This document shows, piece after piece, positions 1,607-63,822 of a stretch of DNA of 64,000 bases (within the stretch, counting starts at the first letter, position 1; each line of letters begins with the position of its first letter). The stretch lies in the NCBI GenBank assembly GCA_009760855.2, contig WPIO01000003.1, positions 14,702,911-14,766,910 of the forward strand, in the 5' to 3' direction. Below the pieces are notes generated by a model. That model saw nothing but the letters and a program-made list of their open reading frames with translations, made no database searches and was not told the DNA's origin. Source of the DNA: Cristatella mucedo. Lineage: Eukaryota > Bryozoa > Phylactolaemata > Cristatellidae. Position numbers and translations under genes: made by a program.

Positions 1607-1612
1607 TTTATT
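1607..1612 (-). terminator. Candidate polyadenylation signal of the long receptor transcript
   Basis: The first AATAAA on the minus strand after the stop at 2094, about 480 bases downstream. The hexamer alone is weak evidence, but none lies closer. Confidence 0.35.
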
Positions 1613-2093: not shown

Positions 2094-2233
2094 TCAAACG
2101 ATGACTTCATATAACACCCTTTTAGCCTGCTTGCTGTCAGTAGCAGAAGTGGCATCACTCTCAGCTACACTGACCTGAGGATGGTATGGAGGTGGCTCAG
2201 ACACTGACGAACTGTCATCCCTTTGGAATCCAT
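2094..2233 (-). CDS. Receptor exon 13, C-terminus with PPPY and hydrophobic end
   Basis: The TTTGTAG acceptor is phase 1, and the exon runs to TGA at 2094-2096. It encodes VSEPPPYHPQVSVAES and ends LYEVIV. PPPY matches the PPxY ligand of group I WW domains. A V-x-V end fits a class II PDZ ligand. An internal CAG/GTCAGT could act as a donor, so a further exon is possible, but the open frame with a stop is the simpler reading. Confidence 0.78.
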
Positions 2234-2702
2234 CTACAAATAAACATGCAATGATAAATTATAGCAGTATCACACATGCATGCACGCACACACACCCACT
2301 GACAGACATACACTTTTACTTATTAGCTGAAATTAATTCCTCGAGAGCTACTGACGGCTCGGGAACAAAATAGAATTGCCATAAATAGCCAGGAATATTG
2401 TAACAAATAAAGATATGAGCTGATGAGGCAGCCACGATTGGATCTCACCACGTCAACAAATTGCCAGTAGGCCATAGAGCTTTCTTACCAAGTTCGTCAA
2501 TGTCGTCAAAGTTGTAGCCGGGTATGCCTTTTGCAGCACTAGCGGTGATAGGGGCTGGTTGCCGCTTGACCCCGACTGAGGCATAAGTGTAATCGTGACG
2601 CTGCGGATTGTTGTTGGCTGCAGGATAGAAAACATGCTGACAGCCTCAATCAGAGGATAAGTCGGTCAGGTCAGCATAACCTGATGCAAACTGGCTAACC
2701 AC

Positions 2703-2790
<88 letters not shown>

Positions 2791-5700
2791 AGGACATGAA
2801 CCAGAGGCAATAGCAGGATACAAAAAATTCTGAATGAAAGTGATTGTAGCATGCGATAACCAATGAATTGGTGGCTACAAAACTGATACTAACACGGAGC
2901 ACATCCCGACTAAAATAAAAATGATGCAACTTACGAAGGTCCTGATCGTGAATCTGAGTACCATCATGGGAAAGATCATCTTCACCTTCACCAATAAAAT
3001 TTGGATTAGCATACAACTGATCCCTTACATAGCTTGCATATGGCGGCTCGTTGGCATTTAACACTGCACCGCTGCAATGTAGTACAGAAGTATTACTACT
3101 CATGTCCATAACTCACGAAAGGCTGATAGTCGGCAGACATTGGTACATATAAATAACATTAATAATGATAATAATACATTTGCATAGCACCCTGGGAACT
3201 TTATCTCTTTCATCTTTATAACTTTACATATGACAACAGTAAAATCGATATAGAAACTGAGGAAGCACAACTACCTCTTAGTATTGAACGAGCAGAGAAT
3301 ATGCCACACACATATACCACACACACAAAAGAGACTAAGGTCGGCCTACTCAACCATCTCATTTATACAGTGAGCAGAGAGCTTTAGTGGCTATCACTAT
3401 GCCTGCTTATGGTACGACTCGAAACCAAGATCTGGGTCGTAAGGCAACCTACCGCTGGGAAAACTATGACCCATTGGCAAGATGAGCAACTGAAAGTGAA
3501 ACGAATGCTTGATAATTTAACGAGCACTCAAGGAGGCAGGCCATCGGGTTTCGCCCAACAGTAACTTATTCCCTCACCAACCCGCATGTGGCAAGCTCTT
3601 ACAGCAGATGATTCTGTACATACTTTTGTCCATTGCATGTGGGGTGACGAACGATAAGGCTATGTTACACAAATGAGGTTGTCAAATCAGCTGGAATATA
3701 CTTTCACTTTTAAATAGAAAGCTTGGATTGTTGATATAATGCTGAAGTCGACGGCTAGAAAATATAAAATCTACATAAAAAGAAGAGAGATACAGGGTAG
3801 TCAGTAACTCAGCAACTCTAAGGGTGGACGTACCAACGCTCTCTGAGATACTTGGAAAGGAAGCAGTGAGCAAACACGGAGAGACAAGGGAGTGGAACAA
3901 GAAGAAAAAGAGAGCCTTAAAAGATAGGTAGGAAATGTCAATGTGTCGTTACTTTTTGAGGCACACAAGACTGTTTTGCAAGAGCTTTTGGCCTTTGGCT
4001 GGAAAACAACTAAGCATACGTGAGTAGGGAAACAACCAGCCACTGTCATACCAGCGAAATTGCAATTCAAGTTCAAACACGAAATACTCCGAGTCTTGTT
4101 TGCAGGGAAAGACTGCATCTACAGGAAGAGCCGGTTGGTTATTACGCAGATCTGCAGACGTAGCTCTGGGCATGCTGAGATTTGTCGACATTTATCAAAA
4201 TACAAAACTGTTTTCTATTTTTTAATTAATTATTCATAACTCACTAATTACGTCCTGCATGCATTGAGACCTTTAACTAGGGTTGAGAGAGCAAGATACT
4301 CATCCAAATTCACATTTCGAATGTGAGTTCCACGTTCCGTTATTCTTGCGTTTCTATAAAGCGCATACTGAGCCACACAAAAACGGCAAAGAAAGCGATG
4401 ATTATCGGTGATCCATGCTCATGCATAGACCACCACAATGCTACAACACGCACGGGATGTGAAACAAGTTGTGGCACCTTACCTTTGTGAAAAATCGTGT
4501 GTGCTGTACATCAATGAGCCCGGTGGACCCTTCTTACGACCTCGACGTCTGACATAGCAAGCAGCTGTGATCACAATTACGATGAGCAACACTGACCCAA
4601 CAACGACACATGCTATGATGATGACATTGTCTTGGGTCAGTTTCGTCTGGCTGTTTTGTGTACCTGAAAAAATTCACCGGCCGTCGAATTTTCACCGGCC
4701 GTCGAACACGAATAGCGCCGAGCCCTGGACACAGCCTTCACAAAGATGTAACACATGGCACAACCACACTGCAGCAGGTTCAAATGTAGATATGGGCAAT
4801 AGTGCTCTGAGTGAATAAGACTTGGATGCTTAGATCACCGTTCCGTCACCATTGCTGCTCAGACGGACTAGATTCCACAGCTAACAAGACAACTCTTTTA
4901 AGACCAGAATGAATGCATCAGCTCAGCAAGAGAAATCCTGGTGTGGTGCTGAAATGTTTCAGAGCCAGCTGCAGAGCTTTTTATAGCCACATACTGGACA
5001 TGTGCTTCTTGATTTCTTGTGGTGGGCGAGGAAGCAGGGGCAAGCGTACTTCCTGTGTTCAAGCATATATCTAACTTTTTATATCAGAGTAGTCAGTGTG
5101 GTTACACAGCAACCAACACTGTAGAAGCAGCATCGTTATGCTAGAGCGGTCAGCAGCCGAGCCAAGCAGCAATAACACAGACTTTAACATTGGGATCAGT
5201 GTTCCTTGCAACTTGCAAGTAAGCTTCTAGAGAGACTATGCTGAAAAAAACACAGGAAATAAATGCTCAAGAAATTAAAAACAACATAGCCCAATGGATC
5301 CAGCTTGGCGTTTCCAGAAAACAATGATCTAAGACAGGCAACAGGGTAGCACCTAACTTCCACGACAGAACCTGTAAGTCCCCCGTAGGACTTATGTCAC
5401 GTATATTAATAATAATAATAATGCACTTGATAAAGTGTGCTCTTGAACAATCCAACAGACAGTACATATGCTCTGAAGCAACACTACTAGCTCACCCTCC
5501 CCAACTGATTGAATGCAGGGTTGCAACCACCGTTGCAGTGGTTCCAACTGAATAGTCAATTTGAAAATACCGAGCAACTGAAGTTTGTCTACAGTGGGAC
5601 TGCGACCTGTAAGGTTCAGCAATATGCATGTACGTGCAGAGATTTCATGATCTTGCACAAATATAAAGTGCCTAGAAAGAGATTAAAGTCTCTAAGGGCA

Positions 5701-8700
5701 CTATATAAAATGCATTATTAGTATTACTATTATTAATCCCTACTTGGCTTCTAAGCTACAAAATTCTATCCTCAGAATTAAATAATTGGACTTTACTTGA
5801 GGTCTTCGAACGACCTGGCCTCTCGACTGAGGACCAAACAGCTTAAAATATTTATGCAGAGCTTCTGGATTTCATCCAGCTGTTGATGATATATTAAAAT
5901 CATTTCTCAACGTTTTCAGACCGTCACCACTTGATTTCTAAAACCCATCCTTAGTGGTCTTAACCTAAAAGATTAATATTCGTTCTCCTAGATTGAGACC
6001 TACAGAAATACTGCAGATGACGATTCATGGATTAAATGCAAAATAGCAGCTGGTAATTGCACATTTACTTCAACAATGTTGATTACCTTAATCCAGTTGA
6101 CCGTTTTTTTAGAGTTGAAATTGTATGACCAATTGATGCAAGTACTCCATTAAATATTTAGTGTAAAATTTGATGATTTTGATGATGCCGGAAAATAGGT
6201 TCCTTGCTGTCTTATCCAAAGTTCGGTACAAGGAGTATGAGATCACCAGTTTCCAAAGTTGGAGATAACGTTTTCACTCAGTGATAACCTGAATGATTGC
6301 ACTAAAACAACCTATGACACTAATAGAGTGTTTAAATGAGAAAAGGAGTTTGCTAGCAACTGATGAACAGGCCGAATAGTGTGCCAATTGCTATGTAAAA
6401 AATGGGCTTCAACTCGAAGCCATTGTTTAGAGTAATTAGATTCTTCACTACCAAGCTTCATAAGGAAGTAGAAATGGATTTAAAAATGAATTTACAATTT
6501 CTCTATAAGAAATTAAAATTGCTCAAACTAATCCTAATGCAGCATATTCATCTGGTCGGAAAGAAATTCAAATCCACTTGCACCTCACTTTTTCACTTTA
6601 GACACACAGGGTCGGAAAATGAAATAGTTTGTGATGGCCCGACGTAGCAACTGAATCAAGTTGCCTTGCAATAAATCTAGCTATAACAATTTGGCAATAA
6701 TTATGAGACCTTAAATTATTGCAAGTGCGAGTCCACTTCATCAGCTCGTCAGATATTCTGATGCCTATACAAACACGTATCAGAACTTGCTTAAACTATC
6801 CCAGAGCAAGGCATCAGAGTCGCTCACTAGTTTACAAGGTAATGGTGATCAAGGCGCATGCTCGTGGTTCGTTGAGACTCCATTAGCAAGGTTGGAGTTA
6901 CTGCAACGCAGGGGAAAGAGGGCCAAAACCCAGAACCAAGGCAAATAAAAAGCACAAGGACGGCCTTCGAGAGGAGCCACACAAACTAGAGGCTGGGTTG
7001 CATTAAATCTGGTACTTACCACATTCTGGCCACGTCTATAAGTGTATTCAAGCCTATGGCAATTGATGGTAGCCATTTCTTACGCAACCCCTATGCATCT
7101 TAAGCAGGCCATTTGATCAGAGAGTACACCATCTTCAGCAATCAGGAAAAGCATTGTGGAAACAGTACAAAGAATCTTAAGCAGCTGCAGTGAGGTGAGA
7201 CTATTCTAGCTAATTAGCGTAATTTATTAAATATGATATATCCTACTCAAAGGCCAGAACAAATCACTTCAGAACTTAAAGTTGCGTAACTAAGGACAAT
7301 CGAGTTAAATCAAATGTGATTGTAATCGTCAAAATCCTTTCAGAAATGAGAATAACATTCGTGCATAGCAACAACTGATAGTTTGGCTGGCAAAGTTCTT
7401 CAAATGCCACTTGCTAGCATTGCTTTCCTGCCTGGACCAAGGCTTCATGGCTGCATGACGATGCATAAGGTCGACAGCAACTTTTATTTGCTGAATGGTA
7501 ATTTCCTACCATATTGCAACTCTTTGGGCTAATCTGTCCACACCTCTCATTGGGCGGCTGCAGCTTGATCTCTGTTCTGTCTCTGCCACTGGCGACAGTA
7601 CGAGGCTGTCGTAGCAATAGCAACTAGCAGACATACAGCACCTACAGATGACGTGGCAACCAAGATAGTTTTGAATTTGCTCAGTGTGTCTGGTGACGAT
7701 GTTGTTGTCTGAGTAGTTTCGAAACTATCTGGAATGAAAATATCTGAAGTGGAAGGTGTGCCTCTGGTGATGCAGATATTTGAAACTTAATCTCATACAC
7801 AGCCAACTCTTGCAAGTTTTATGAGATTTCTATCTAGGAAGATAGGAAAATCGAAAACAGTGCTAACCAAAATTCGCCAAGAACGAGATACATCTATGCG
7901 AATAAAAATGTACTGGAAGTACCTGAACAGGATCTTGATTTTCTAGCTGAATATCCCACGGAAGTTTCCTAAAACTCACTGCAGCCTTGTAAGGCCCTGC
8001 TGACTACATTCACCTTGATCAAGGTCAAGGTGAATGTAGTTAATGACCGAGGTCGTGGGCTCAAGCCGCTAGGCATACATGAACCGCCTGAATACAGATT
8101 ATGCATGCTTAGGAGCTATGCAAATGAATTATATTTGTATAAGCATTCTCTAACACAGTAAGGCAGGGTATGGTGCAGCATTTATAGCCAAACAACCTGA
8201 TAAATAGCACTGCAATAGAAACTTTGAAAACGCAACCGATCAGAGGAAACAGAAAATTCAGAGCTTAACGAACTTCTGCCCGGCAATGATTTACCAAAAC
8301 GTGAGATTCACATCAGTTAGTTATGTTGTTAACTGACCGTGCATATTTCTACCGTGGTTATCTTAACAAGCACAAAAATATACTATATGAGCCTGTTTTG
8401 GCAGAATTTAAGGCCTTTCTGGCTTGTGACGTAGTCACCATATCGAAGGCTATTATTTCGTAGCACCGTAAGATTATTGCAAGATTAACTAAGATTGATT
8501 AGGTAAGATTAACTAGATAAACCAAATATCCTCTGTCTTAGAATGTAACTAATGTGACATACTTTACCTCAGCAATCATCAATGACTTGCAGCATGCTAT
8601 TTTGAATGTGCTCAACCATATGCCTGAGGGCCTGACAGGGCTTTAAATGGTGAAGGAATCGATGACAAAGTGGGGAAAACCAACAAACCATATTATCGGA

Positions 8701-11700
8701 TAACTAAAGAAATCTTTTATATTATGACTAACAGATATAACTATCCGTTTTCCTAACACACATACATATATATGCATTAAATGTAACTACCTTCTCGTAA
8801 CGACGGTGGAAATATTTGTATACACACTGATTATAATGGTTACGACAGCTCAAGTGCCAGTGTATTCAAACGTACTAAAAAAAACTTCATTTTTTCGCAC
8901 CTAGTGAGCTAACTAAGTAGGCGGCACACTTGCCACATTTATAGCTTCGTCATGTTAATACTACCGAGTGGCAGTGCTGTTTGACCTTTGTTTTTAAAAT
9001 CACTGCAACACTTCAGATTTGTGTTGATTTCCGGGGTGTGTAAAGTTTTTGCACCAGAAGACATTTATCAAATCACGAACAAATATAAACCATGCTGCAC
9101 AACTTGCTTTCCAGCAATTCTTAAACTAAGGAAAATCAACTCATTCAAAATGCAGAACCAGGCCTTGAAATTGCCATTTTAAAAACTAAAAAGATATACA
9201 ACCCTAGTTGTTTCAAATGTAAATAATGCACCACTTTGGACTTAACTGTCGACAGGTAGCTATTGCATCCAACATATGACCCTCAATTAACTGTGATTTT
9301 ACCTTTCGCATTCTATATAAGTCCCTGAAAATTCTAACAATCTTCCCGCTTACTACTTGCATCAGTGATTCGACCAGGAGTACACTGCCCTTATGGGTCA
9401 GCTAATAATCTGCCATCAAACCAATACCATCTAAATACACGTGTGACTGAAGAATAGTCCATCTCAACTAAATACTCATGGCTGCATGCTAACGGTAACG
9501 ACTAAAATAGTTGATTGTGGATCACTACTAGGTATATATAATAGCGAGTGCATTGGCGTTTTGAGAAGGCATTGATCGACGGACATCAGTAGATGGACTT
9601 GCCTGTAGTTCTTGTAAGGTCAGCATAAGCTCCACACACTATATCTTGAAAGTTGACCAGGCACCATCGGGCACGAGCTGCAGGACACTGAATGCTCTGA
9701 GCCACGTTAGCACTTGTCAGGGTGCAATTATTGGCTGACATACTGCTCTGAGAATCGGCATAGGAGCAATTGACCTCGACACAGTATTCAGCATCAGCAT
9801 GAAAAGGAAGACTCCAAGGAGTGCTAAAACTCAAGCTTCCAGCTGGCGGTCCATCCAGCAGAGTGACCACCACCACCTCCGAGGAATTACTTTTTCCAAC
9901 GTAGTTCTTTGCCTCGACATACACAAAATAGCTGCCAGATGAAAGCCCTACAAAAATTAGGAAATTATTAACTAATGTATAAACAGATGTTCTCGAACCA
10001 TCTGTAATTTACCTAGAAGCTTCCTCTGTAGAGGTTCGATACTCAGGAACTCGGTGCTACAAACCACCATTCAAATGTAACGAACCTGTCTGTTCTCGAC
10101 TGCCAGCTATGGCATTAATTGGTCAGCAAGCTTCACTGCCACATCCTTAGTGCCTGCTTAATCAACCGTGTCCTTATTTTCCAACGAGCTTCAAAATCTC
10201 ACTTTTTAAAGCAAATTATGCATACAACATGTGGCAATGCTTTGACAGTGCTTGCTAAAACCTTTCCTTTGGACCACCCAATAAGTTATCAAGGCTTTGT
10301 TGAGCTACAGGTCAAGATGCAAAAGTAAACTCACACGCAAATATGGCTTACAGCGAATGCAGACAGAAAATATTACAGTATTGAATGCAGCAGGCACAGG
10401 CACAGCTGCTAGTCACAGCGGCACCCAACTAATTCCCAAACATTCATATATGGAAAAATTGCATATACACATAAAACTGATCTATAAATGACATACCCGT
10501 GACTGTGCATGACGTGCTGCTTCCATTATATACAAGTGTTAAATTGACATGCACCTGGAATTCCTGTTCATAGCCACCATTGTACGATGCAGCCCACGAA
10601 AGTACCATCGTGGACCATCGAGCGGCGACTTCACTCACATTTGAAGGCGGCAGAGGTGGAGCTGCATTAAAAAATGTATAAATGTCTCGAGGCATCATAC
10701 ACTGTGATACATTCACATTGCGAGAACATTTCGGCCTTAGCAATATCCTAGAAAAGAATGTAATGAGATCCCTTCCCTATCAGCAATCAATGAGCCTATG
10801 GCCCAACTCTACTGAATGCAAGCCAGTCAGGCTAAACTTTGGCTATGAATGTCTTTGACAAGGGCACAACTAAAACCCATACACAACATAATTGTGCCTC
10901 CCCAATTATAAGTAGTTCAAACTAGATCTTAAATTAGAGCTTAAAAATGTCTGCACATGCTATGTATAAGCAGTCATGGGTAGTATAAGGAAACGACAGC
11001 ACGGCCTAAATATCGGCAGCCTCAACATCTATCGTCAATCCAACTAGCACTGCTAGACGTGCATTTCCTTAACAGCAGATTTTCAAGGGTAAGATGTTTC
11101 TACAAGAAATTCCAACAGAAGCTTTGAGACTAGTGCATGTGGTTCAAGGGCAGCAAATCGATGTACTTGCACTCTCGCTTGACAATATACGAGCCAGATA
11201 TTTTAGAGCACCAAACAGCATGAAAATGCTGGCTGTGACAGTGACTGCAGGACGATATTTACTGGTAAGACTTAAAGAACCAAGAGCCAAGCTGTCAAGT
11301 ACCTACTACTTCAGATTGAATGCATAGCAAGAATATTAGGGCCTTAGCAAAGTTGCATAAATTGGCTGCTGAAATGCAGCAGTAATCTATCCCCAACATT
11401 ACCATACGTTATAATGATAACATTAAGAAGAAATACTTGGCCAGTGAGCAGGGAAATCAGCTGGCTTTAGCTGGCACTGGACAAATGAGCTAGCTGAAAG
11501 ATCAGACATTACCAACGTGGGTGTGTGGTTCTTTAAGGGGGGTGTCAAGAAAATACCTACAAAATTTGTCTGACAATCAAATATGTGTTTATAGTACCTT
11601 TCGAAAGACAAAAATGTTAGAACTAGGATCTAAAGTTCTGACGACTTCTACGTAAAAGAAAAATTGGTTATGCCAACCACGCCTAACCCGGATGTAAACC

Positions 11701-14700
11701 GGAAGCAACAAATCTACAAATAAAAAATGTACCGATCTCTGCATCATATGCGACTTGTATCCCAGCTTGTCGAACCTTGGTAGATCGCTATAGACGCTTG
11801 AAGCTTGTTGAGGTGCATACTTGTGACTTTTATACATCTTTATTTCCAAGGTTGGTTGGTGCCTTGTAAATTAAATAACTCAACTGATATTTCACATATC
11901 GGAATGAAATTTGAAATGCGAGTTTAGCTCTCCTTTTCCTACAGTAGTTTTTAATATTTTTTATTTCGATTTGATACATTTGGCTGTAAATTTAGGCACC
12001 AACCAACCCAGGAAATGAAGCCGTGTAAAAGTCACAAGTGTGCACCCAACAAGCTTCAAGCATCTATAGCGATCTACCAAGGTTCGACAAGTTGGGAGAC
12101 AAGTCGCATACGATGCAGAGATCGGTAAATCTTTTATTTGCAGATTTGTTGCTACCGGTTTACATCAGGGTTAGACGTGGTTTGAATAACAAATTTTGCC
12201 TTTCATGTATAAGTTGTCAGAACTTCCGATCCCAGTTCAAACATATTTGTCTTTCGAAAGGTACCATAAACACATACTCGTTTGTCCGAAAAATGTTATA
12301 GGTATTTTCTTGACTTCCCCCTTAAGATAAGAAGTGAAAGACAGCAGCTCATTGCCTAATAAGCTCTCACTAAATCGGAAATAAAATGCTGTCCACTGTT
12401 TGGCAATGCTAACCACCAGCGGGATGGTAAGCACACAGTAAGTGGCACTGTCGGGAGAATAATGTCTAGGGCACCCTCTAATTTAACTGCATTAACCCTT
12501 CCCAGTCACTTCTAAATGCTTCATATACAATAAGGCCACGAATGATTCACACATTCCAACATAAACTAGATGGTAATGAGTGCTGATAAATCACTCTCTA
12601 ATTAAAAATGCCACACAGGCAGTTGACTCTTTGAAATCATAGAAAGGTGAAAGGGCATCAAGGGGTGGCCAAACTGCCCCACCCAAGCCATCAGGTCGAT
12701 CCAGGGGAAGCCAGCACTTGCTAGCCCTCCTTTCCACTAGCCATGTCTGGACACTGTGTTCTAATGGACTTAGCGTTCTAATATGGGGTCGGCAAAGATG
12801 TGAGTCGATGCCGTAAGCCAAAAAATCGGTTTATTGACGGGTCCAGAAATCAAAGAATCTGCAGTGTAACCATGCTTTAAACAGCAGTACACCGGTAGTT
12901 AATTCTGGTGGGCCAGCATGAAGTCAATGTCAACAAAAAAAAGTGGAACACTATTAATAAGGCAGATTAGAAACTACGATGTCTTGTGGAGAGAATCAAC
13001 AACTAAGCCTGCTGAAACCATACCTGCTACTCTGTTGATACAATCGACCGCTCTCGATAGTTTGGTTTGGCAAACATCTCCTGGGATAATAACAATAATT
13101 CTAATAATAATAAAAAGACATTTGTATACTACCCGAAGACAACTAACTGCACTGTTAGAGTACTTGTACAGCCATAAGCCAGCTTCTGGCTCCAGCCAAC
13201 ATATCAGAACTACTCCTCCACCATGCTAGGCATCGTATCACCTGCTTTTTCTGAAACATATCCCTTAGCTATACGTCAAATCAACCTCAAATTCTTTGGA
13301 AACCGTACCTTTTGTTCGTATGCTCCTAGAGCCTGGCATTCACTCCAGACTAACGACATCCCAGACTTGACATTTAAAAAGAAGCTAAAGACACATTTTA
13401 TCACAGCATTTAGTAGGTCATTGTGATTCGACCTTTGTGAGCTTATGCATACTGACACTGTGAACTGCCACTAAACAAATTTACACGTTGACCCTCTAAA
13501 TTTCACCTCTAACCATGTTATGCTTGCTGATACTGCGCATATTACCACTAACCATTTGATCATTCTTCCTTTACAGCGTATGCAAAGTGCATAGAATGAG
13601 ACTATGTTCTCTGACGGTGCTATACAATTTTTTACTAATATTCTTATTAGGTACAATGCTATGAAGAGAGGGCTCCAACAGCAACGTCAAACTTCACATA
13701 TACAAAGCTCAATGGCACTAAAGATGGCCTTCTTGCCCATGGGGACGGCTAAGCCTTGTCACCAGTGTCCCTCGGTTGACAGATTGAATTGCCGCTCGTT
13801 CACAAATACCAGATAGTTTTGCAAAGCATAGTGGTATCGACTACTACCACTTATGCTATCAACGTTGTGATGCATATTCGGAAGAGAAGCTTCTCTATCG
13901 TAGTCACGCCAACCATGCCACACCTATCATGAGATTATTACAAATGAGTTCAAATGATCTTGTATTGAGATTGGGATTGTCTTAGATCGGGTGAGATTAG
14001 TTGGAATAGGCTAATAAAAGAGCATACTTGTAATTAAAAGAGGCCGACAGGCTTTATCGTATGTAACACGTACGAAGCAGCAGCAGCGATGCAAAATCCT
14101 AAGCGGCAGATACCCTATGCTGCTGCAACTCACACGGCGCAATAACGTCGATGGATGACGAGTCGTTGCCATATTGGCTATTGGCAAAGCATATATACGT
14201 CCCATAGCCATCCTGGCGTAGGCTGGCAATAAGTAAGAAGCTTTTCACAGTGAATATCGAGCTGCTGATAGTTGTGACATTCCAACTAGAATATGTGGAC
14301 ATGTTTTTTGTCCATGTAATAGTCGGCAGAGGGTTTCCATAGGCTGAACAAGCCAAAGTAATAGGCTTTCCAAAGTAACCCACAGTAGTGGCTGGACCAC
14401 GAGCAATCACTGGTTTTGCTGCAAAAAATGTGTGTAGACAGAAATGAGATTATCAAACTGGCATATGACGACTGATTCTAGTAAGAATAAAACATGTGGT
14501 AAACGCTCTGGCCTGGACCATGCCTACTTGGTGGACATGCTCAAGCATCGTGCTTACACTGCATAGGTGAAGCAACGACTACGAAGGGCACATGCTCAAC
14601 GAACGCTACTCATATCACAGCAAAACGAGCGAACTACTGAGCGTACAGCATGCTTGGGAAGCGCAGCACATGTGAATGCCCTGAGTTTATCACTAAGTAC

Positions 14701-17700: not shown

Positions 17701-20700
17701 AAATTAAAAAGAATGGTAGCAAGTAGCTAGGGGTAATGTTCTTGCTCTTCACGACACAGGTCATGGATTAGAGTCCAGCCACGAGCGGTCCTGTAATGCC
17801 CACTGCAAGTGGTGGTGATAGCCTTTGAGGCTATTTTGATGCTATATCAATGAGACTGCTAATTCATCTAACATTTCTTACTTTCTAGCTACTGACGACC
17901 ATCTTGCTGCTTGTTGCACTCGGGCGCGAGACTGCGTTACATGTCCGTGAATAAAAAAGGCTACATAATGAACCAATTACCGTGTTTGTTGGAATCTCAG
18001 AACTTGCTTTCTCATAAGAATCACATTGAGGCTAGAAAGTAGCCGATACCCTGACTCACTAATTCGACAGCAAGAACAACTGCAATGACTATAAATTGCA
18101 GGGTTCAAATGAGGAATTCATAATGCCAACTATCCAACTGGTCTGCCATACCAAGCAGAATCAGACACTGAAAAACCACTAACAGCATGAACATTGAGTG
18201 TAGGATAACAGCTATGTCCTACTGCAATGCCACACACAAAGGAAAGCAAATGACATGCCATTGAAATTCTACTTATCTTACCAAAAACGGATATGTTACA
18301 CATTTCTGATGCTGCAGGACCTGCAGTGTTGTAAACTGTGCAGACGTATGCCCCACTAGAGGTCAGGTTAACAAATGGCATTATCAGTACACCTGTTGAC
18401 AAACCGGTACGAATTGTCAGGCCATTCTGAGTCCAATTATATAGAGCAGCAGGATTTCCTAAAAGAGAAAAGATGGTCGATACCATCAGACATCATGTAT
18501 ACATCAACAAAAAGGAGATGATTTTCGAGCAGCTAAAGATATACGTTTTAGAAAAAATTTAAATGTTTTCGTGTTTAAAGCAAACTTTGCTTCTTCTGTG
18601 ACAATCTCTCCAACTCCTCACCCCCAAAAATATTGACCCGAGTGATTAAAAACAGGCTCGTCAGCAAGCTGGAATTAATCCTGAATGTTGCCGATGCCGA
18701 CGGTTTCTTCTTCCTAAGCCTTCCCTTCCTGCTCTTTGTGCTTCGGCTGTTTCCTGTGGGCATTTTCAAATTCGACAGAATCATCGGTAGCCAAAAGGTC
18801 GGTTCACGCAAATGTGAGCTTCTTGGAAAGAACTTGCTTAAGCTGAGTACAGTTAAACGCGATGGCGACTTACCTCTCACATTTTCCTTGCCCAAGACGC
18901 ATGAGCTGCTTTGATCTCATCGGTCCTGAATTTATTTATTTAAATAAATAAAACATTAACAATGCTCTGGAAAACTGGACGTATTGTAAACCATTTTTGA
19001 AAACGTCTATTTTAAAATAAATTAAAAATCTATGCAGTACTTAAGCAACTGGGATAAATGAGGGCGCCATTGCTTCAGGGCGCAGGCCAAACAACACCAA
19101 TATCTCCAATGCCTCGCTTACAACGGCACTGTTCGCGGTTCATAATAGTGTGCACTGGTTCAACCACAACTCTTTACACTAATGAAAACACAGGTTGTAC
19201 AGCTCCCTGAGAGCACGCAATCTCTTTCTTGGCATTCAATATAGGCTGACAATTATGCGCATAGACTGATTACCGATAAGATAACTGTACAATTGCAGCA
19301 TGCATAACCATTCCAATGACAATTTAAAATGACAAAGCAAATGCCGCAAGGCACAGGTGAGCTTTTAACTTCAATTTAAATGTCTGCAAATCAAGGGTGT
19401 GGTGAGGTACTGCAACCACAGCAACTCAGGCTTCAACAATCGCAACAAAAGAAATTAAAGTATGCCACGATTTGAGTGTATCCACAAGGCATCGTCCTAT
19501 ACAGCAAGTGCATTCTCATGCAATGGACTACTAAGGCACGGTATTGGTCTAGGTCTTGGCAGTTCATTTTCATAAGAACACCTGGGCGCAACAGTGCGAA
19601 ACAATGTGGATACCTATGAAATATCAAGTACTACTACATGCAATCAAAATTGAAGATTTTTGCAGTCGATTTCGCATGTATGTGCACTGTATAGCAGTGA
19701 TTCGTTGAGCCTGAAAGCTATGGCTGATATGAGTCAAGTGATATTAGCGATACTGGTGATAGTAGTCAGCAGCTCTATGACTTAGTTGTGTAGAAATGTA
19801 GGGTCTACACAAAATATCGGCTGGGTCCTCTGTACCGACAAATGATCATAATAAGAGAAACCAGGTGTGAAAAGCAACAAAAATGTAAGGCCTAAACAAG
19901 ATTTAGGCTTGGTCTGAAGCATAGGTAAATAATCATAATGAGAGGATCCAGTGGCAAAAAGCAACAGACGAAAGAATTTCAGCATGTTATTCTATGCGAG
20001 TTGTCATGTTATGTTATGTTATGGTATGAGAGAAAATTTGGAAAAGAGCTGAAAAATTAGTAACATGACACTATCTGAAGCTTGATGGGGAACCAGCACA
20101 GGTCAGAGAGAAGTGGTCATGAGCCTATTACAACGTTACAGACAAACATACTTTGCTGTCGTTTTTTTGAAGCTAATGTGCTTAATTGCAGGGACAGAGA
20201 GACCTGAGTCATAGTAGAGGGGAGGTAGTTCACAAACATCACGACCTTGGTCAAGGGATCGAGTACTTTGGCAGGCTATTCATTATTGCCTGCCGCGAGC
20301 CAATGACAGCTGCTAAGGCTCTTCTCCTGCTAAAACAAGAGAAGCTGTTCAGTCAGCTTTACTTTTTAAGTGAAGGTATCTGAAACTAAAGTAGATGCGA
20401 TACATGAATGGTCGAATTCAGCTGCAGCCCCATTATTTAAGCAAGCCCAAATGATTTCTACCAACAAATACTGTCACTAACCAAACATCACTCAAATGAG
20501 AAGGCTGGGCTGATGGTCTACCACAAACTGCCAAATAAAGTAAGAGCATATGGATCACAAAGAGCTATTCGCAATGCCATAGTGCATTGCATGGGCTGCA
20601 GACGACATAGGTACGAGAATAAAGGGCATATTTATTACCTGGGTCGCTGACGTTGCATATCAGACTAATATTATCTCCAGACGAAATGTTAACCGAGCTT

Positions 20701-23700
20701 GGGTATACGATCGGCTTACTTGGTATATCTATAAAAATAAACAGAATAAAAGAGTAGTCGATTGTTACTGCCTACTCGGCAACAGCTCACAGTAGCAAGA
20801 TCGCAAACAGCGAATTAAATATTTAAGTGATTATGGAAAAGCTACTCAAAGATGATCTGAAATAAGAAAACACAAAATGGCTTACATTTAACATCCAAAG
20901 TGATGTTGCTAGAAATGTTCAAGTTAAGCAGTTGGTTGACAAAGTTCGAAGTGGTGCAGATATATATGCCAGCTGCTTGCCTCTGTATGTGACTCACATA
21001 CAAGTACGATACTCCTCCTATAGTGTTGTTCAACTGGATGGTGCTCCCACCTACATTTTGCAAAAACTACAGGTAAAAATCAGCCATCAGCTTAATCAAT
21101 AGTAACAATACCAGTGAAATTTGTATAGCATCCAAAGAGAAATTAATCTCGTTCTAGGCACTTGAAATATGCTGCAAAGGAATCCTGGCAATTGGTTAGT
21201 GATAACATGTGCAGTGTCAGCATTCGTAAGTATGCAAAAGACAATCCATACGGACCAAGCAAATGTAATGAGAAATAAGTATGCTTGTATTTCTTTTAAA
21301 ATGCCAAGTACGAGAATTTCGTGATCAATGTGGATGCCAGACTATGGATACGAGCAAGGAAGAACATAGCTGCTTACTTGTGTTAGGCGCTGTCCATGAT
21401 ATGGAGGGCAGCGGCTTTCCCTGAGCCGAGCACGTCAGCATAATATCACTACCTTCCACAATTGAAGCTGCAGATGATCTTAGTAAAACATTCCTAGAAC
21501 CATCTGCAAAAGTTTACATACATCAGCAGCTCTCCTAATATGTAACAGAAACTATATAACAGCTTAACAAACAATGCAAAATAGTTTAGTAAAATGTAAG
21601 AAACGTTACCCACAGCGACCTCGTGTAAAGCAGGAGTAAAAACATAGCAAATTGTTATCTTTGACTGAATCTAAACTCTAGATTTGAAGTACCAGCCTGT
21701 CGTGTCTTCGAAAATGAAGATTAGAATAGCTATTGCCACGAAAATCAAATATAAATGAGGGAATGACAGATGCTGGGAACGGCTATTGCCGAGCTGGCAG
21801 CATCAACAAAACTGTGGTCCTTTCACGATACTATACATGCATGGGTTACTCATCATTAGCAACTCCAGCAAACACATCTACTTACAACTGACATTCAGAA
21901 AAGCAGTAGAACTGTTACTGCCAAGAATATTGTTGGCAACACATGTGAGTGACGCTCCATCATCCAAGTAACTGGGGACGAAGCTGATGATGCCAATAAC
22001 ATCTCCACTGCTGTTGGACGTCGCAGATACGTTGGATTGCTGTAGAACACCACCTTTGTACCACGTGATATTCGGAGCAGGGTAACCACCAAGAGACTGA
22101 CATGTTACCATGGATATGCGACCTTCGATCATATCCAGGGCCGACTGTGATATTGAAGGCAATCCTGGCAAATCTAAAATAGCAGATCCAAACTTTGAAA
22201 GTTGAGAAAAAGACGATAACATGACGATCTGGCATTCCAAGATTGAGACATTGAGATGGGCGTAAAAAAAGATCAAAACTCATAACTAAGGCTACTGCTG
22301 CAGTAGGGCTCGAGTCTACCAAAGGAACATACCGGTTGTCAACACTTTTTCCGACAAGAAAAGAATGCTTTTATTGGTCTCGTGGGTTAAACCTGGACCC
22401 CAGGGGCCGAAAGCCAGTATCTCAAGCCTGTCCCAATCAAACAGATAAAAGAAAATAAATAAGAATGAAAGACTGGGAGAAGAGTCGGCCAGGAAGTTGA
22501 TAGATACTTCAAAATCAAAAATGATGGGAAGTAAGCTTATGTTGTACATCCATCCACACTGTGGTGGGCTATGCTTTTTTGTATGTGACGACATTTATCA
22601 AGCCAAGCTGGCTTACTGATCTTTCAATATTTGACCGGTAGCAACAGCACACAAATGTGTATTCAGTCAGCATCATTGTCGATGGTTACTTGATCAATCA
22701 AATTCATTTGTTACAAATCAAACATGACGTTCTATTAAGAAACCTTGCTGATTTCAGTGTCGATTAGTGAAGTGGAAGCATAGCAAACCAGTTTTCCTAT
22801 CATTTAAAAAAAGAATAGCTCCATACAGGTTGTGGCAGTGCGAGGGTCTGTTTCTGGATTCATAGATGGGTGCAAAAGCTTGGTAGTCTTTTTACGAAAC
22901 TTGCAACTACATTAAGAAGTCAATATAATAGTACCATAAAAATACAGTACGGCTTTGCAACTTTTAATTCTGCCTGTTTATTAAAACAATATGCAATAGA
23001 ATAAAGAGCTTTGAAAATACCTTTATAGTTTCGTGGTGGCTGTCATTATAGAACAAAAGTGAAGCATGCATAGCTGAGGATTTGCCAAACCCAAAAGACT
23101 GTCTACACGAATGTCTGACATAATAGTTTCTATACAAGTGCAGATAAGAAATAACTGACACGACTTGTATTGTCTAAATCCAGAATTACTCAAATCACGC
23201 AGCTGACACGTCGGTTATATAATCAAGGTGTAGCAGTTAGACTTAACATAATGTACTGTTTTAGTTAGTAACCGAGAAACAGTTTTTCAAAATAAAAAAG
23301 GGTACTCATCTTATTGGTGATGTAAACACGAGATAAATGCCGGCCCTTTGATAAATTAAACTCCACGAAAAGTAGCCTTAATTATAGCGATCAGAATCTA
23401 GGTCATAGATAAGGAGGCGGCTGCAGCAACTTGACCTTTGAGACACGCCAACCGTCTGGAATGTGCAACACTACTATTACTATCGGTCTTGAGCAGAGGT
23501 CGGCAAACTCTGGCCTGTGGGCCAGATCCGGCCTAGCTAGTGCTTCAGTCCGGCCTAGCGGCCCCCTAGTTATTTATTGATGGATCCGGCCTATTTGAGT
23601 TGTGCCGGTTTTCTTCCCCTTCACAATAGAGGTACTTTGAGTGACGAGTATTACAACGAACGAGTTCAGGAGGCACGAGCCGTCTCGGCTGCTTTTTGCT

Positions 23701-26700
23701 TTGAGTTGAGAGCCAACTGCAATTGTGCATGACTTTTTTCTTCGCGTGTTCCGCAGTATGATTTTCGAACTACGACTTTGCTTTGCGCATGGCTGCTATC
23801 CGTGACGAATTTTCACCTGAAAGTGTTAACGCAGAGGTCGGCAAAATCCGGCCTTCATGCCAGATAGGCCCCAGCTAGCACTCCAGTGCGGCCTAAAGCC
23901 ACCCTAGTTATTTATAGTTGGATCTGGCCTAGTTAATAATTATAATAATAATAATACGTTTGATATAGCACCCTAGAGAGAACTCAATCTCTTTCTAGGG
24001 ACTTTACATTTTGCTGCAAAAGAAGCACGATCGAATGGTTAGTAATTGAATTGTCGTGGTTTTGTTCCTCTTCATTACTGCTGGTTGCAGTTCAAACTGT
24101 TAACCTTGTTTATTTTTAGAACTGATATCAGGTGCTTGTATGAACAGAAGCGCATGGCCGGGTAGGGGTGATAAATGTCTACCTCTATAATTGTCGTGCG
24201 TGTCCGTGGGTCAGTTGTGGCTTTTTGTTGGTTTGTTCGTCTGGCCACGCCCACTCCGGTTCGACAGAGTGGGCGTGACCGGATTAGGCTACTCAACCGC
24301 ACAAACTGCTAGTCAGTCACAGTGCACCAAGCCAATAATGCAGCAATACTGACCAATGTTGACTCAGGTGCCATAGTCACGTGCCTATCGACCACTGTGG
24401 GTGCCTCGTGCTCAAGTATCTCAATTAAAGGTAACACAGGCGCCCACGCCTACTTGCCTAGACGACAGCCGGTGGATATGTAGTAGCACCGGTGGCTAAC
24501 TTGACACCGACATTTTGTACAGCTGAAGCAAATGTCTACCTTTATGCTTTCTAGACTGCAGCAGCATGCACCTGCTAGCTGTTAATAATAATGATAATAA
24601 TAAGATTTGTATAGCATGCGATCAAAACCGAATCTCTTTCCATGCACTTCGTGTATGCTGGAAAAGAAGTTGGCAATTGATTGGTGATAACATCCACAAT
24701 GTCAGCATTCATAAGCACTCAAAGGACTTTTCTTACAGACCGAGCTAATGCTGATTATTGGTAAGACATATACAAATAAGATCTTTGAATTTTTTCCCAA
24801 AAAGCATTAAAAATGTCTAGACACTTTACATATGCTAGCAATGAAGCCTGTCTATTGGTAAGTGATACTATGCACCGAGTCAGCATGCATGCACACGAAG
24901 GAAAACTTCACGACATGAAAAGTGCTGTAGATGACAGCTTTTTTAGCTTCTTCTTAAATGCCAAGTCAGATTATATCATTGATTAGAGGCAGAGCTAAAC
25001 GTGTGGAGTGAGGAGAGCCTGCGGTACTTTACCTAGCCTGATTGAGTAGTAGTTTGGAAAGGGAGGCTGGAGCAAGAGAACAAAGGAAGTGAGTGACACA
25101 ACCTTGAAGAAGTCGATATGCTGGTTAATTGGGAGCCAGTGCAGGTCGGTAAGAAGTGGTGTAATGGGGAAACTGCAACGTTCACGACAGACTAGCCGAG
25201 TTGCCGAGATTTGCACCGACCGTGAGACCCTTATTGCACCGTAAAGGAAGACCTGCAAGTGGAGCGCTACAGAAGTCGAGATATCAAACGAAGTCGGGAT
25301 GTCAAACATACATAGACAAACTTGGATGTGGTATCCCTGTCTATGCATGCCTCTGAAGAATTGCTATTTAGCTGAAAGTCGCAATGTAGAGCTGATGTTG
25401 TCGCCTAGTAAAAGATAATGTACAGCAGAACACCCAGATTGTGTGCAGATGCTACAAGGAGATTTGCCGGGGAAGCCCACTTTGGTGCTGGGTTTTTCCA
25501 TTTCTGAGTAATATTTAACCAACCAGCCTTCACAGGCAGAGGTAGGTGATTCACATTAGCCTCAGCTTGGTCATACTTCCAGCATAGGCATCGCTTAGCT
25601 GACTTATTGACTCCTGGTCCCTTGCCATCACACACAGTCCTCTCTAGGCTGGACAGACTCTTCTCTTTATTCTTTCTCACAATTGTAGATCTTTTACATT
25701 TGTTGTTAAATGATGCCACTTACATCTAGCCCACTTGACAATTCTTCCATTTATATTCACCACCAAGTGTGCATTGCACTTATCCAGTGGAGAGAAAATG
25801 GCATGTTTTGAACATCGTTTGGGGTTGCCAGTTGGCCCAAGTGTCACACTGGCACTAGCAATGTGACCCTCGTTTGTGATCGGCAAAAAATATACGTATG
25901 TGCAGATATGTCTATTTACTAGGGCCAATACAATATCAAAGACAGCACGTGAATGACTAAAATATCGACTGACAGACTTTAACATCACACTACCTTGACA
26001 AATAGAGCCAAACCTTTCTAGACGGCCACCTATTTAGAAAGGCATGCACATAGGGACCAACAGGTCAAATACGAAATACCTGCTGTGTGTTCCATATGCC
26101 ATACAACGTTGTCTTTTAGTTCAGAACCATCACACTAACATCGGATCTACCAATTCCAGCAATACTTAGCAGATGAAACAATAAACCAGGCTCGATCTCG
26201 AGCTGAGCCAATGAAATTGATATGGTTTGGAAATAACTAGGACTGAAAATAATGGACATATTTGTACAAAACAAATGACAACCATACACACTTAAGCAGT
26301 ATGTTTTTGACGGTCATTACATGGTAGTTAAAATTTCGCAACTAAGCGATGCAGTTGTTAGCTTACAATGTATATTCATACTTGGTCTGTATATAGAGCC
26401 AACTTACCTCTCACCGTCAACGTCAATGATCTTACTACTGTTGGCTGACCATTGCCGCTGTAGTAGATTGTACAACCGTATTCTCCTGTGTCGGCCCGTG
26501 ACACATTTGCAATGATTAGGTCGTATGAGGATGTATTGTTTATGCAATACTTTGAAGTACAGCTTGACTGACCACTGAAAACCACTATCTGGTTTCTAAA
26601 CGTCCAGGCTGCATGTGATACGGATCCTTGAGTAGGGTCACTTCGGCATGTGAGCACAAGGGGCACTCCGGAAGGCTTGTCGTAGACGACCACGTCAGCT

Positions 26701-34746: not shown

Positions 34747-35228
34747 AGCTATTTCGGGAGATGAAGCCGATGACGCCCTGGGAGATGTCTTGTGCAGCGT
34801 CCCTAGGCTTCGATGGCTTCGGAGACTTCGTTGGCTGGCTGCTGAACTTCGAAAGGGAGATCGAGGAAAGTGGCTACGAACGAAGTGAGTGCCACTTGTT
34901 TTTGCTCCTTGCGATGCAAGGCGGGGCCTTCACGTTTGCCTCGGGGCTCCCGTAGGAAGTTCAGGATGACTATGCCAAGCTTCGTGAGGCCCCAGTGAGG
35001 GCATTCACCTCGCCGGCCGGTAGAGCGCGATTGCTGCACGCTGATCGGGTAAAGGCTGGTCGGACTGAGAGGGCCGACAGGAGCGACCAGAAGCGGCAGC
35101 AGCGATCACCGACTGTGTGCCAGGCGACAGAGGTTTGTCAGGCTGCCACCCCGTGGCGGCAGGCAACGGCTATCAAAGCGGTGACGGTTGGTCAGGCTGC
35201 GATGGTGTTCCACGAAGCAACGGCGTAG
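34728..35228 (+). pseudogene. gag-like frame of the LTR element, broken by an amber stop
   Basis: A frame from an ATG at 34728, inside the last 19 bases of the LTR. It carries FVGWLLNFEREIEESGY and AFTFASGLP, then DDYAKLREAP after the stop, the order seen in Ty3/gypsy capsid (retrotransposon gag) domains. In-frame TAG codons lie at 34953-34955 and 35226-35228. The same frame then continues into the alanine-rich ORF from 35250. No zinc knuckle was seen. Confidence 0.5.
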
Positions 35229-35249
35229 TGCGAGGCAACGGTCAGCGGT

Positions 35250-35966
35250 GTGACTGAGGCGACGGATAGTGAGACGGCGCACGGAGAGGCAGCGGCGTCC
35301 GCGTGGAGGGCGGCGACGTCCGCGTGGAAAGCGGCAGCGGCCGCGTGGAAGGCGGCGGCGTCCGCGGCAGAGTCGGCGGCGTCCGCGGCAGAGTCGGCGG
35401 CGTCCGCGACAGAGTCGGCGGCGGCGTCCGTGGCAGAGTCGGCGGCGGCGTCCGCGACAGAGTCGGCGGCGTCCGCGTGGAAGGCGGCGGCGTCCGTGAG
35501 GAAGGCGGCGGCGTCCGCGACAGAGTCGGTGGTGGCGTCCGCGGCAGAGTCGGCGTCCGCGTGGAAGGCGGTGGCGTCCGCGACAGAGTCGGCGGCGGCT
35601 TCTGCGTGGGAGGCGGCGGCGTCCACGAGGAAGGCGGCGGCGCCGGCGACAGAGTCGGTGGCGTCCGCGACAGAGTCGGTGGCGTCCGCGATAGAGTCGG
35701 TGGCGGCGTCGGCGGCAGAGTCGGTCGCGTCCGCCAGAGAGGTAGTGGCCGGCGATGCAGCGAAAGCCATGAAGGTGACGTTGGCCTGCGACCAGCCGGT
35801 GGGCTGTGACGCGGCACAGGCAGGAGAGTGTGTGCAGACTGAAGAGTCTGCACAGGACGGAGAGGCTGTCCAGGAGGGAGAGATTGTGCAGGCCGCAGAG
35901 ATTGTGCAAGCCGGAGAGACTGCCCAGGTTGGAAAGGGTACGCAGGATGTTGAAGCAGCTGCTTAA
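35250..35966 (+). CDS. Alanine-rich repeat ORF inside the LTR element (238 codons)
   Basis: Encodes seven- to eight-residue repeats of the forms AASAAES, AASATES and AASAWKA, then an acidic, glutamine-rich end (VQEGEIVQAAEIVQAGE). It is in the same frame as the gag-like region, so it may be its downstream part. The repeat is GC-rich (GGCGGCGTCCGCG units), so every frame is open on both strands. Whether this frame is translated cannot be decided here. Confidence 0.35.
   Translation: MTEATDSETAHGEAAASAWRAATSAWKAAAAAWKAAASAAESAASAAESAASATESAAASVAESAAASATESAASAWKAAASVRKAAASATESVVASAAESASAWKAVASATESAAASAWEAAASTRKAAAPATESVASATESVASAIESVAASAAESVASAREVVAGDAAKAMKVTLACDQPVGCDAAQAGECVQTEESAQDGEAVQEGEIVQAAEIVQAGETAQVGKGTQDVEAAA
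35300..35745. repeat. GC-rich tandem repeat GGCGGCGTCCGCG(ACAGAGTC)
   Basis: Irregular tandem array of 21- to 24-base units built from GCGTCCGCG and GAGTCGGCG. It lies in the interior of the LTR element and generates long spurious ORFs on both strands. Confidence 0.9.
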
Positions 35967-36204
35967 ATCGGAGACGCGGCGGCAGAATCGGCAGAGGCGG
36001 ATGAAGCGACGGCGGTTGGTGTCCGAAAAACAGTGGCTGTGGACGTCAGCTCGACGACGATGGTCGATGGCTCACGTTGCCGGCTGGTCGCAAAAGGCCG
36101 TGCACCAGCTTGCCTCTTGCGATCAGCCGTCAGGTAGCCTGTGGGGTCAGCTATTGATGCTAGCTGCTATGTGGAGGATGTGTAGGGTCTAGTTTGCATC
36201 GTTT

Positions 36205-60884: not shown

Positions 60885-63822
60885 TTAATAATAATAATAA
60901 TAATTCACTTGATAAAGCGCCCTCAGAGAACTTAATCTCTCTCTAGGCGCTTTACATTTGCTGTAAAGTGAAATGCAATTGAATGGTAAGTAAAATCATG
61001 CTTGAAAAACAAACGAAATGAATAATATGGTTAGGGGTGACATGCACAGGGTCAGCATGCAAATGTGGTTAGTGGCAGCATGCACAGTGTAAGCACGCAT
61101 AAGCACATCAAGGACGAATCACAGGGACCCACTAAATGCTGTCCTAAATAGGTGTGTTTTTAAGTTCTTTTTAAATGTGGTCAGGTCAGGGGATGTTCTG
61201 ACGCAGGTCGGGAGGGAGTTCCAGGCTTTGGGAGCATATGAACTAAATGCACGGTCTCCAAAGGATTTAAGGTTTGTACGAGGTATTTCTAGTCTGTTGG
61301 ATTCCGAAAAGCGGGTGGTACGATGCTTAGCCTGATGGGGTAGTATATCTGACAGATAGGCTGGAGCCATAGAATGGAGGGACCTAAAAGTGAGCGACAA
61401 AACCTTGAAGTCAATCCGTTGCTTGACTGGTAGCCAGTGCAGGTCGGCGAGAAGTGGAGTAATGTGGCAACTGCGACGCTCACGGCAGACAAGTCTAGCT
61501 GCCGAGTTTTGCACCAGCTGCAATCACCTGATCGCACATGCTGGTAGGCCAGTAAGCAGGGAGTTGCAGAAGTCGAGACGGGATGTCACGAATGCATGAA
61601 CTAACTTGGACGTGGTATCTTTATCTAAACAAGCCCGAATTTTAGCAATGTTATGAAGCTGAAAATAGGCGGATTTGACTGTGGAGGTGATATGGTCGTC
61701 TAACGAGAGGTCGCTTTGGAATATGACACCTAGATTTCGAGCTGATTCAACTGGAGATGCTGGCAGAGCCAATTTTGAGAGTCAGCCTGTCCAATCTCTG
61801 GATCACACTGGGTTTGCCCATAACTAGTAAGTTGGTTTTATCATCGTTAAGTTTTAGAAAATGTGCTGCCATCCATGTGCGGATGTCATCAATGCATGCA
61901 GCTAGTGAGTTGAGAGAATTTGAGGTGCTCGAAGGCTGGGAGGGATCAAAGCAAAGGTACAACTGAGTGTCATCTACATAGAAGTGAAAGCCTAGATTGT
62001 GCTTGGCAATCACATCAGCAAGAGGCAGAGTATAAACCGTGAAAAGAACCGGACCTAGCACTGAGCCCTGAGGTACTCCATATTTCAGAGGTACTTCAGA
62101 TGATCTTTGTCCATTCACGTCAATACTCTGAAGTCTCCCACTGAGATAGGACCTGAACCATTGCAGAACAGTGCCAGTGATGCCCAGGCGAGATGAGAGG
62201 CGCTCTAGAAGAACTTTGTGATCGATGGTATCAAAAGCTGCCGAAAGATCAAGCAAAACAAGCAGAGACACTCTACCCATGTCTGCATTCCTAAGTAGGT
62301 CGTTGTATACCCTAAGCAATGCTGACTCTGTGGAGTGATTAGCTTTAAAGACAGACTGGAACTTACTAGCAAGGTGTGAGGTTTCGATATGTGAGTTCAG
62401 CTGGTCCACCACGACCCGTTCGAGTGTCTATGATAGGAATGGTAGAAGGGAAACTGGGCGGTAGTTGCTCAAGTTCTCTTGGTCAAGTGTAGCTTTCTTG
62501 AGAAGTGGCCTGACTACAGCTTTTTTGAAAGGTGCTGGGACATAACCTGAGGCTAATGACATATTAATTATGTTAGTTATGCATGGCAGCAGTAGATCAA
62601 TGCAACGTAGGAGCAGGACAGTGGGAATAGGGTCCAGAGGACTTGTTGTCTTCTTTGATTGAGATACGAACTTTAGGACTAGATCACTAGTGACCTGCTT
62701 AAATGCAGACATTGAGGTGCAGCCAGGAACCGAGGAACAGCATTCTAGTGGGGAGGTTGTCATCGCAGGGATAGATTCCCTGATCTTGTCTATCTTCTGC
62801 ACAAGGAATCGAGAGAAGCGATCGGCTAGATCATCATTAGGATCATCAGGTAAGGAGCTAATTTTGGGAACGGTTGAGGAGATGGTTAATTGTCGACATC
62901 AGCATTTTTGGATTGTGCATCTGTGATTCAACAATGTTTTTATAAAAGCTAGACTTGGCCTTTGCTAGGATCAAGTGGTACGACCTACAGTAGTCTTCAT
63001 ATGCCTGTCGATGGACAGTTAGTCCGGATCTTTTGTATGCTTTTTCAAGCTTTCGTTTAGTAGACTTGGCTAGTTTAATGTCTGCGGTAAACCATAGGCC
63101 GTCTGGGCGGGGTCGCGTAGTGCGCTTTGTCAGAGGGGCAAACTCGTCTAGCGTGTCAGCTAGTGTTGCGTTGAAGCTATCTACCAATGATGACAGATCG
63201 GAGGGGGACTGAGCAGCAGAGGTGAAGCAGATATTCTCGCACGGACAGCATCGATGTCAAGGGTCTTGAGGTTTCGCGATTCACAGGATATTTTAGAGGA
63301 GGATGTGGGCACACACTGTAGATTGAATGAGATCTGCATGTGGTCAGATAAGCAGGATTTGGTAATAATTGATGATGACAAAGTGCAGTTGTATGAGAAG
63401 ATCTAGTCGAGTGTGTGACCCTTGATATGGGTAGGGCCATGCACATGAGCCACAAGAGACAATGAGTCAGGCAATGCACGAAATTCGGTGCTGAAAGCGT
63501 CAGATAAGTTATCAAAGTGAACGTTGAAATCACCCATGACGAGGAAGGATCGATTTCTTGCACACAGAATCGAAATGAGATCGGAGAAATCTGAAATAAA
63601 AGAGGATTTGGTACCTGGTGGGCGATAGACTACTGCCACTATCGGTAGCTTGTTTTCAGGTGAGACCAAGACAGTTGATTCAAAAGACTGCTTCGAGGGT
63701 ACCGCAAATGGCTTGAAGTTGAATTTCGAGCGCACGACAATAGCAACTCCACCTCCAGTTTTGATTGATCTAGGGGTGTGAAAGAACGAGAAACCAGATG
63801 GAGTTGACCCTGTGCATGTCAC
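60885..63822 (-). mobile_element. LINE A, most complete copy: endonuclease and reverse transcriptase
   Basis: Read on the minus strand: an AP-type endonuclease part (GGGVAIVVRSKF, VAVVYRPPG, FLVMGDFNVHFDN); a linker; RT with LLDLSAAFDTIDHKVLLERL, YGVPQGSVLGPVLF and HFYVDDTQLYLCFD; then the C-terminal region and a 3' UTR ending in (ATT)n. These motifs place it in the CR1/L2 branch of the Jockey group. The EN N-terminus is missing, and at least three frameshifts or stops (near 63.4, 63.2, 62.8 and 62.4 kb) separate the frames. The RT frame itself (62412-61747) is intact with the catalytic YVDD, so the copy is fairly young but not functional as read. Confidence 0.93.

Follow-up and report, generated by a model that had tools for sequence, protein, structure and literature searches.

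The stretch of Cristatella mucedo DNA analyzed here (64,000 nucleotides, hereafter the window) is the end of contig C332 (C332:14702911-14766910) in a genome of 572 Mb, and it carries on its minus strand a gene for an immunoglobulin (Ig)-type receptor that starts with an ATG at 26771. Judging from its sequence, this one gene quite likely gives two membrane receptors with one ectodomain, by a choice between two transmembrane (TM) exons, named S and L. Nine shared exons are followed either by S or by L and three tail exons (T1-T3). Spliced in silico, exons 1-9 with S make up 2187 nt and exons 1-9 with L and T1-T3 make up 2592 nt, predicting a short form of 728 residues and a long form of 863, each with a single terminal stop; as the preliminary description of this stretch had claimed, both frames are complete multiples of three. 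The elements of the proposed choice are listed below.

9603-9947, minus strand: exon 9, end of the FN3 domain and a cysteine-bearing membrane-proximal segment, phase 1 out; 5' partner of both S and L
9601-9602, minus strand: GC 5' splice site (CAG/GCAAGT), common to both splice choices
7547-7728, minus strand: exon S, with stalk, TM segment, 16-residue tail and TGA; putative alternative terminal exon
7483-7488, minus strand: AATAAA behind exon S, offset 58 after the stop
7308-7546, minus strand: candidate 3' untranslated and poly(A) region of the S transcript, from its identity to copy L016
4483-4663, minus strand: exon L, with a second TM segment and the start of the long tail, phase 2 out
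2935-3071, minus strand: tail exon T1 (YASY, YANP), genome matches at 4 places
2489-2617, minus strand: tail exon T2 (YTYASV), genome matches at 4 places
2094-2233, minus strand: tail exon T3 (PPPY, C-terminal ITIM-like VLYEVI, stop), genome matches at 3 places
1607-1612, minus strand: AATAAA behind the long form, read in the sequence

The preliminary description had exon 9 joining, in the same phase, either 7728-7547 or 4663-4483, and the coordinates, phases, frames, TM segments, stop and AATAAA that it gave for the two exons were recovered. Exon 9 leaves one base at its shared phase 1 donor, and S and L both continue in frame. The acceptor of S is TTTTCATTCCAG followed by ATA, and the exon closes with TGA at 7547; the acceptor of L is TTTTTTCAG, and its phase 2 end is followed by GTAAGG. 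S encodes the stalk, TM segment and short tail with a stop that had been described for it; we count 16 residues in the tail, and the AATAAA lies at offset 58. L encodes a different TM segment and leads into a tail of 158 residues (about 155 had been given) with nine tyrosines, one YxN, one PPxY and a single pattern match to the immunoreceptor tyrosine-based inhibitory motif (ITIM), the ITIM-like C-terminal VLYEVI. Of the two TM segments that of L is the stronger, with a hydropathy peak of 3.53 over 19 residues against 2.29 in S. The donors of the long form are GT in 11 of 12 cases, the sole GC being that of exon 9, which is GC in all nine copies of the gene that have this exon.

The tail encoded by S is short, polar and arginine-bearing, which matters for the way the short form would be held in the membrane. 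If the hydrophobic segment of S were a glycosylphosphatidylinositol (GPI) signal, the short form would be GPI-anchored, and both the moderate hydrophobicity of the segment (2.29) and three copies that stop shortly after it (SYCRQW, then the stop) point in this direction. However, a tail of this kind, of 16-17 residues, follows in the window and in four other copies. A polar, arginine-bearing tail after a hydrophobic segment suits a TM stop-transfer sequence and not a GPI signal, and we consider GPI anchoring improbable, a TM short form being preferred.

The anatomy of exon S taken alone is not beyond chance. When the 4,939-base intron was shuffled 500 times with its dinucleotides preserved, 86 of the shuffles contained a TM exon that was in phase, ended in a stop and had a poly(A) hexamer no more than 150 bases away; such an exon of at least 60 residues was found in 21 of 500, and when the hexamer was not required (any length) the count rose to 341 of 500. 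When the other introns of the gene were scanned in all three phases, three of six held a comparable candidate exon. Chance alone as the origin of the pattern was therefore not rejected by anatomy; it was rejected on the comparison of paralogues, and it is because of this comparison that the arrangement of S is placed above chance.

Eleven copies were compared, namely the window and 10 further ones (L009-L016, L018, and L019), of which L011 has 2,499 N. Genome matches, which are lower bounds, were obtained for exon 9 at no fewer than nine places and at two weak ones, for S at ten or more, for L at eight or more and for the tail exons at three to four at least. The acceptor of S (AG, pyrimidine-rich) is kept in all ten copies that have the exon (L010 is without it), and the frame runs uninterrupted through the TM segment in eight and at full length (60-61 codons) in five, namely the window, L012, L014, L016, and L019. 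L is open in five of eight copies (window, L009, L014, L015, and L016) and frame-shifted in L010, L013, and L018, and stops lie within exon 9 in L010 and L012, two of the nine copies with the GC donor.

Between the window and L016, the identity of S (89.6%) is close to that of exon 9 (90.4%), with L at 95.0%, whereas overlapping stretches of intron of the length of S average 78.1% (342 stretches; 77.6% for 290 in the older block). The level of S is reached by three of the 342, all starting 46-66 bases behind S. In 60-base steps, identity to L016 rises from 0.70 to 0.88 on crossing the acceptor of S, and 3' of S it stays at 0.83-0.90 to about 7308 (~240 bases past the stop) before falling to 0.75; since steps of 0.82-0.92 recur further downstream, the 3' edge of the conserved block is not sharp. 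The 5' step is smaller in comparisons with L015, L018, and L011. Within S, window and L016 differ by 18 substitutions and eight altered codons with no indels, as compared to 14 indels in 855 flanking bases, and 2.2% of the runs that simulated neutral change kept the frame open with no more codons altered than that. A pairwise test was also made on the 28 pairs of the eight copies with S open through the TM segment, pairs that are not independent of each other: the identity of S exceeds the mean of the upstream flank in 27 pairs and that of the downstream flank in 26; for 10 of the pairs, every upstream stretch stays below S.

A number of observations weigh against a gene that makes both receptors. 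Both forms are predicted from DNA sequence alone, all parts are present in just two of the 11 copies (the window and L016, the latter on contig C174), and the copies are recent duplicates, so the features they share are not independent. S stops at 48 codons, beyond the TM segment, in three of ten copies (L011, L015, and L018), an insertion in L013 cuts the frame near the end of the TM segment and is followed by foreign codons, and L009 has a frameshift at codon 18. The AATAAA at +58 is present in four of ten copies (window, L012, L014, and L019), while in L016 the site is changed and the nearest of the twelve hexamers sought is an ATTAAA at +219; of the whole model, polyadenylation stands on the weakest ground. 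Where L011 is one of the pair, conservation of the downstream flank roughly equals that of S, and when the broken copies are added, so that all 10 are aligned, S (0.75-0.89) forms no peak over the preceding 250 bases (0.80-0.85). The neutral simulation gave weaker values for S of the window with L014 (0.12), L012 (0.36), and L019 (0.71), the same procedure on exon 9 yielding 0.11 with L016 and 0.018 with L019. Codon models (with no transition bias) put omega for S at 0.50 in five copies and 0.56 in eight, neither significant (two-sided p 0.088 and 0.058), next to 0.30 for exon 9 (p 3e-7), 0.23 for L (p 0.022), and 0.58 for two tail exons (p 0.22, not significant). The likeness of S to L is likewise uneven: in nine S-L comparisons across three copies the score was reached by none of 2000 shuffles in four, and by 8-26 of 2000 in the other five, and at the DNA level it was reached by 6 and 71 of 300 shuffles.

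Such a picture could arise if S were a relic, that is, an old duplicate of a TM exon, formerly used and now skipped or spliced at noise level. S is broken or shortened in half of its ten copies, its omega near 0.5 comes from weak tests, its poly(A) hexamer is not kept across copies, exons comparable to it turn up in shuffled introns (86/500), and it does not stand out in the ten-copy alignment. Against a relic speak the comparison of the window with L016, where S is conserved like exon 9, above the intron and without indels, the acceptor kept in every copy, and the excess of S over the mean of its upstream flank in all but one of the pairs. We regard a relic as unlikely and favor a functional exon S, which is probably under constraint, less tightly than the ectodomain, as suggested by the codon models and simulations. 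The reading in the preliminary description is partly supported. Two alternative TM exons behind one donor, with S built as an intronic terminal exon, would provide forms with and without a long tail, and this agrees with the paralogues, where both exons occur and S is as conserved as exon 9 between the window and L016. The hexamer that had been cited is missing from six of ten copies.

S and L themselves are probably the products of an old exon duplication. In the window copy they align without gaps over 43 residues, and none of 2000 region-wise, composition-keeping shuffles reaches the score.

It could also be supposed that two adjacent genes are involved, one comprising the ectodomain and S, the other L and the tail exons with a first exon of its own. 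A precedent may be seen in the Botryllus candidate fuhc, as presented in part of one report (PMC12065747), and the parts do occur separately among the copies, L010 and L014 having L and tail exons but no complete exon 9, and L012 and L019 having exon 9 and S without L. However, S and L begin in the same phase, a query of Ig exons 2-8 (exon 1 not included) finds nothing between the two, and the two ATG with leader-like stretches in 7480-4664 are without a phase-1 GTRAG donor. A separate gene for L was rejected, no first exon for L having been found in these searches, and we hold two genes to be very improbable.

Under the preferred model of one gene, cleavage and polyadenylation inside the long intron would leave exon 9 joined to S, giving the 728-residue protein with its own TM segment and ~16 cytoplasmic residues. 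Without intronic cleavage, splicing of exon 9 to L and onward to the tail exons would yield the 863-residue receptor with ~158 cytoplasmic residues. Splicing at the GC donor may be slow, so that the transcript can meanwhile be cleaved behind S, or the choice of S or L may lie with regulated factors. GC donors are described as enriched in alternatively spliced genes, and in Caenorhabditis elegans let-2 a conserved GC donor is required for regulated alternative splicing, its replacement by GT abolishing the regulation (both in a portion of PMC2490688); let-2 differs in being a collagen gene, with neither a terminal exon nor a TM segment involved. The partners of the short form would be those of the long form, but binding would not be signaled through the tail; the short form could in this way damp the long one, or it would merely anchor or adhere. 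The exon anatomy, the open frames, the GC donor and the presence and partial conservation of the exons among paralogues are read from the sequences; we infer the use of both exons, the polyadenylation step, the exon duplication and the role of the short form; a decoy is one candidate for that role, and adhesion only or signaling via a partner would fit equally.

A mechanism of this sort is already known from other systems, and it is the gene cluster (see below) that is newly seen. Arthropod Dscam is reported to have alternative TM exons, namely exon 17 in Drosophila and exons 32.1/32.2 in Penaeus monodon, and a shrimp Dscam without the tail has been reported as well, with type III polyadenylation suggested (excerpts of PMC3364881 and PMC6851185). 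Like the present gene, Dscam combines an ectodomain of Ig and FN3 domains with a pair of alternative TM exons (here by anatomy) and tail-less forms (here predicted). According to the same excerpts, however, the tail-less shrimp form lacks both TM segment and tail and the Dscam TM variants are mutually exclusive internal exons, whereas here one TM exon would itself be the terminal exon. The domain count of Dscam (10 Ig, 6 FN3) also differs from that of the receptor gene (5 Ig, 1 FN3). In mammals, IL18R1-Short arises by intronic polyadenylation as a transmembrane decoy that is without the signaling domain and damps signaling (extract of the preprint PMC13232192); the receptor is unrelated, a LINE2 element supplies its poly(A) signal and the extract describes no second TM exon. 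Botryllus FcoR comprises Ig-superfamily type I receptors in one locus, and splicing of some of them swaps the signaling motif (PMC12065747, in part). It is a tunicate system with an Ig/Sushi ectodomain, in which, by that partial account, the ITIM is exchanged for a hemi-immunoreceptor tyrosine-based activation motif (hemITAM) and the tail is not removed. Finally, oyster CgIgIT2 has five Ig domains, one TM segment and a tyrosine signaling motif (section of the review PMC11999971). This motif is an immunoreceptor tyrosine-based activation motif (ITAM), no alternative TM exon is mentioned in that section, and the likeness to our gene is one of description only.

Eight copies of the gene lie on C332:14450396-14725081 (the part in the window being 1-26771) on strictly alternating strands (+,-,+,-,+,-,+,-), and three on C174 with strands +,-,+; the minus-strand copies on C332 other than that of the window are partial. 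Invertebrate allorecognition receptors of the Alr and FcoR type are clustered Ig receptors of high allelic polymorphism that control fusion; of these traits, the one assembly shows the clustering. Copies on C174:43700-178248 have counterparts on C332 that are ~78-96% identical to them over kilobases; there are rearrangements, and the S/L states differ. C174 may be the other haplotype of the cluster. A distant paralogue of exon 9 lies at C656:1257043-1257366 (32% identity, E 0.0013); reading it for TM exons gave no clear exon structure. Our search of the open-access literature, made without the species name, did not find the cluster described.

All exons 2-8 are matched in six copies (L009, L013, L015, window, L016, and L018), of which the window and L016 alone have T1-T3. 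In the remaining four, exon L is of a diverged class with 76-78% identity to L of the window, and in L013 and L018 its frame stops soon after the TM segment, which would give another short-tailed form; the early stop in these two is probably one shared event. No tail was found in ~13 kb downstream of L009, L015, and L018 or in ~5 kb downstream of L013, where the best tail-exon match had an E of 0.68 and no clearly coding segment was seen. The tail seems, from these sequences, to have been lost at the gene level too, a different, unrecognised tail exon being the alternative, and with such loss the cluster would resemble paired receptors. We tentatively raise the possibility, to which we give rather less than even weight, of a lophotrochozoan immune or self-recognition receptor complex in which signaling would be set per transcript, by the duplicated TM exons and the conserved GC donor, and per gene, by tail exons that occur in two of the six copies with all Ig exons 2-8, the rest having apparently come to be tail-less by more than one route. 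Should both forms be produced, a single splicing decision would determine whether the same ectodomain signals or stays silent. The receptor family concerned is clustered and comes from outside the arthropods, tunicates and vertebrates, which are well studied. Its paralogues differ in how the tail was lost and share the GC donor, and they form a natural series for how receptor decoys arise.

The ectodomain common to both predicted forms consists of a leader, five Ig domains and one FN3 domain, encoded by exon 9 (above) and by exons 1-8, listed here.

26408-26771, minus strand: exon 1, start ATG, hydrophobic leader and first Ig-like domain, phase 1 out; from the open frame, likeness to L028/L029 and a weak Ig_3 match
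21886-22173, minus strand: exon 2, Ig domain; from the open frame and Pfam
21378-21503, minus strand: exon 3, part of an Ig domain
20886-21050, minus strand: exon 4, part of an Ig domain
20639-20728, minus strand: exon 5, part of an Ig domain
18282-18458, minus strand: exon 6, part of an Ig domain
14134-14418, minus strand: exon 7, Ig domain
10497-10661, minus strand: exon 8, N-terminal (first) part of FN3

Pfam recognized four Ig stretches and one FN3 over exons 2-9. Exon 1 was found by a looser scan with relatives, as a strict leader and donor rule gave no candidate; its Ig_3 match (E=1.4e-5, 25.9 bits) is under the Pfam cut-off of 30, and its leader and start of the first Ig domain are also seen in L028 and L029. 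The closest PDB chains by sequence are Dscam, Robo and contactin, a likeness that tells little beyond the presence of Ig repeats.

Elsewhere in the window, a repetitive GC-rich stretch with long open frames on both strands extends over 35106-36071, and minus-strand open frames at 61747-62898 and 63403-63828 resemble, from their translations, reverse transcriptase and endonuclease of the long interspersed nuclear element (LINE) type. Rfam at gathering scores had no match in window positions 1-24000. Among the other contigs, C688 is mitochondrial (21 kb), with a repeated block, a tRNA cluster and genes on both strands; a bacterial-code tRNA search of the mitochondrial pieces found none. Mitochondrial COX1 fits a PDB chain under translation table 5, the invertebrate code, at places that had been read as Arg and Ile with table 4, and the order of the mitochondrial gene block may be likened to that of lophotrochozoans such as chitons and phoronids. 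Additionally, a let-7 gene, which is a mark of bilaterians, is present in the genome.

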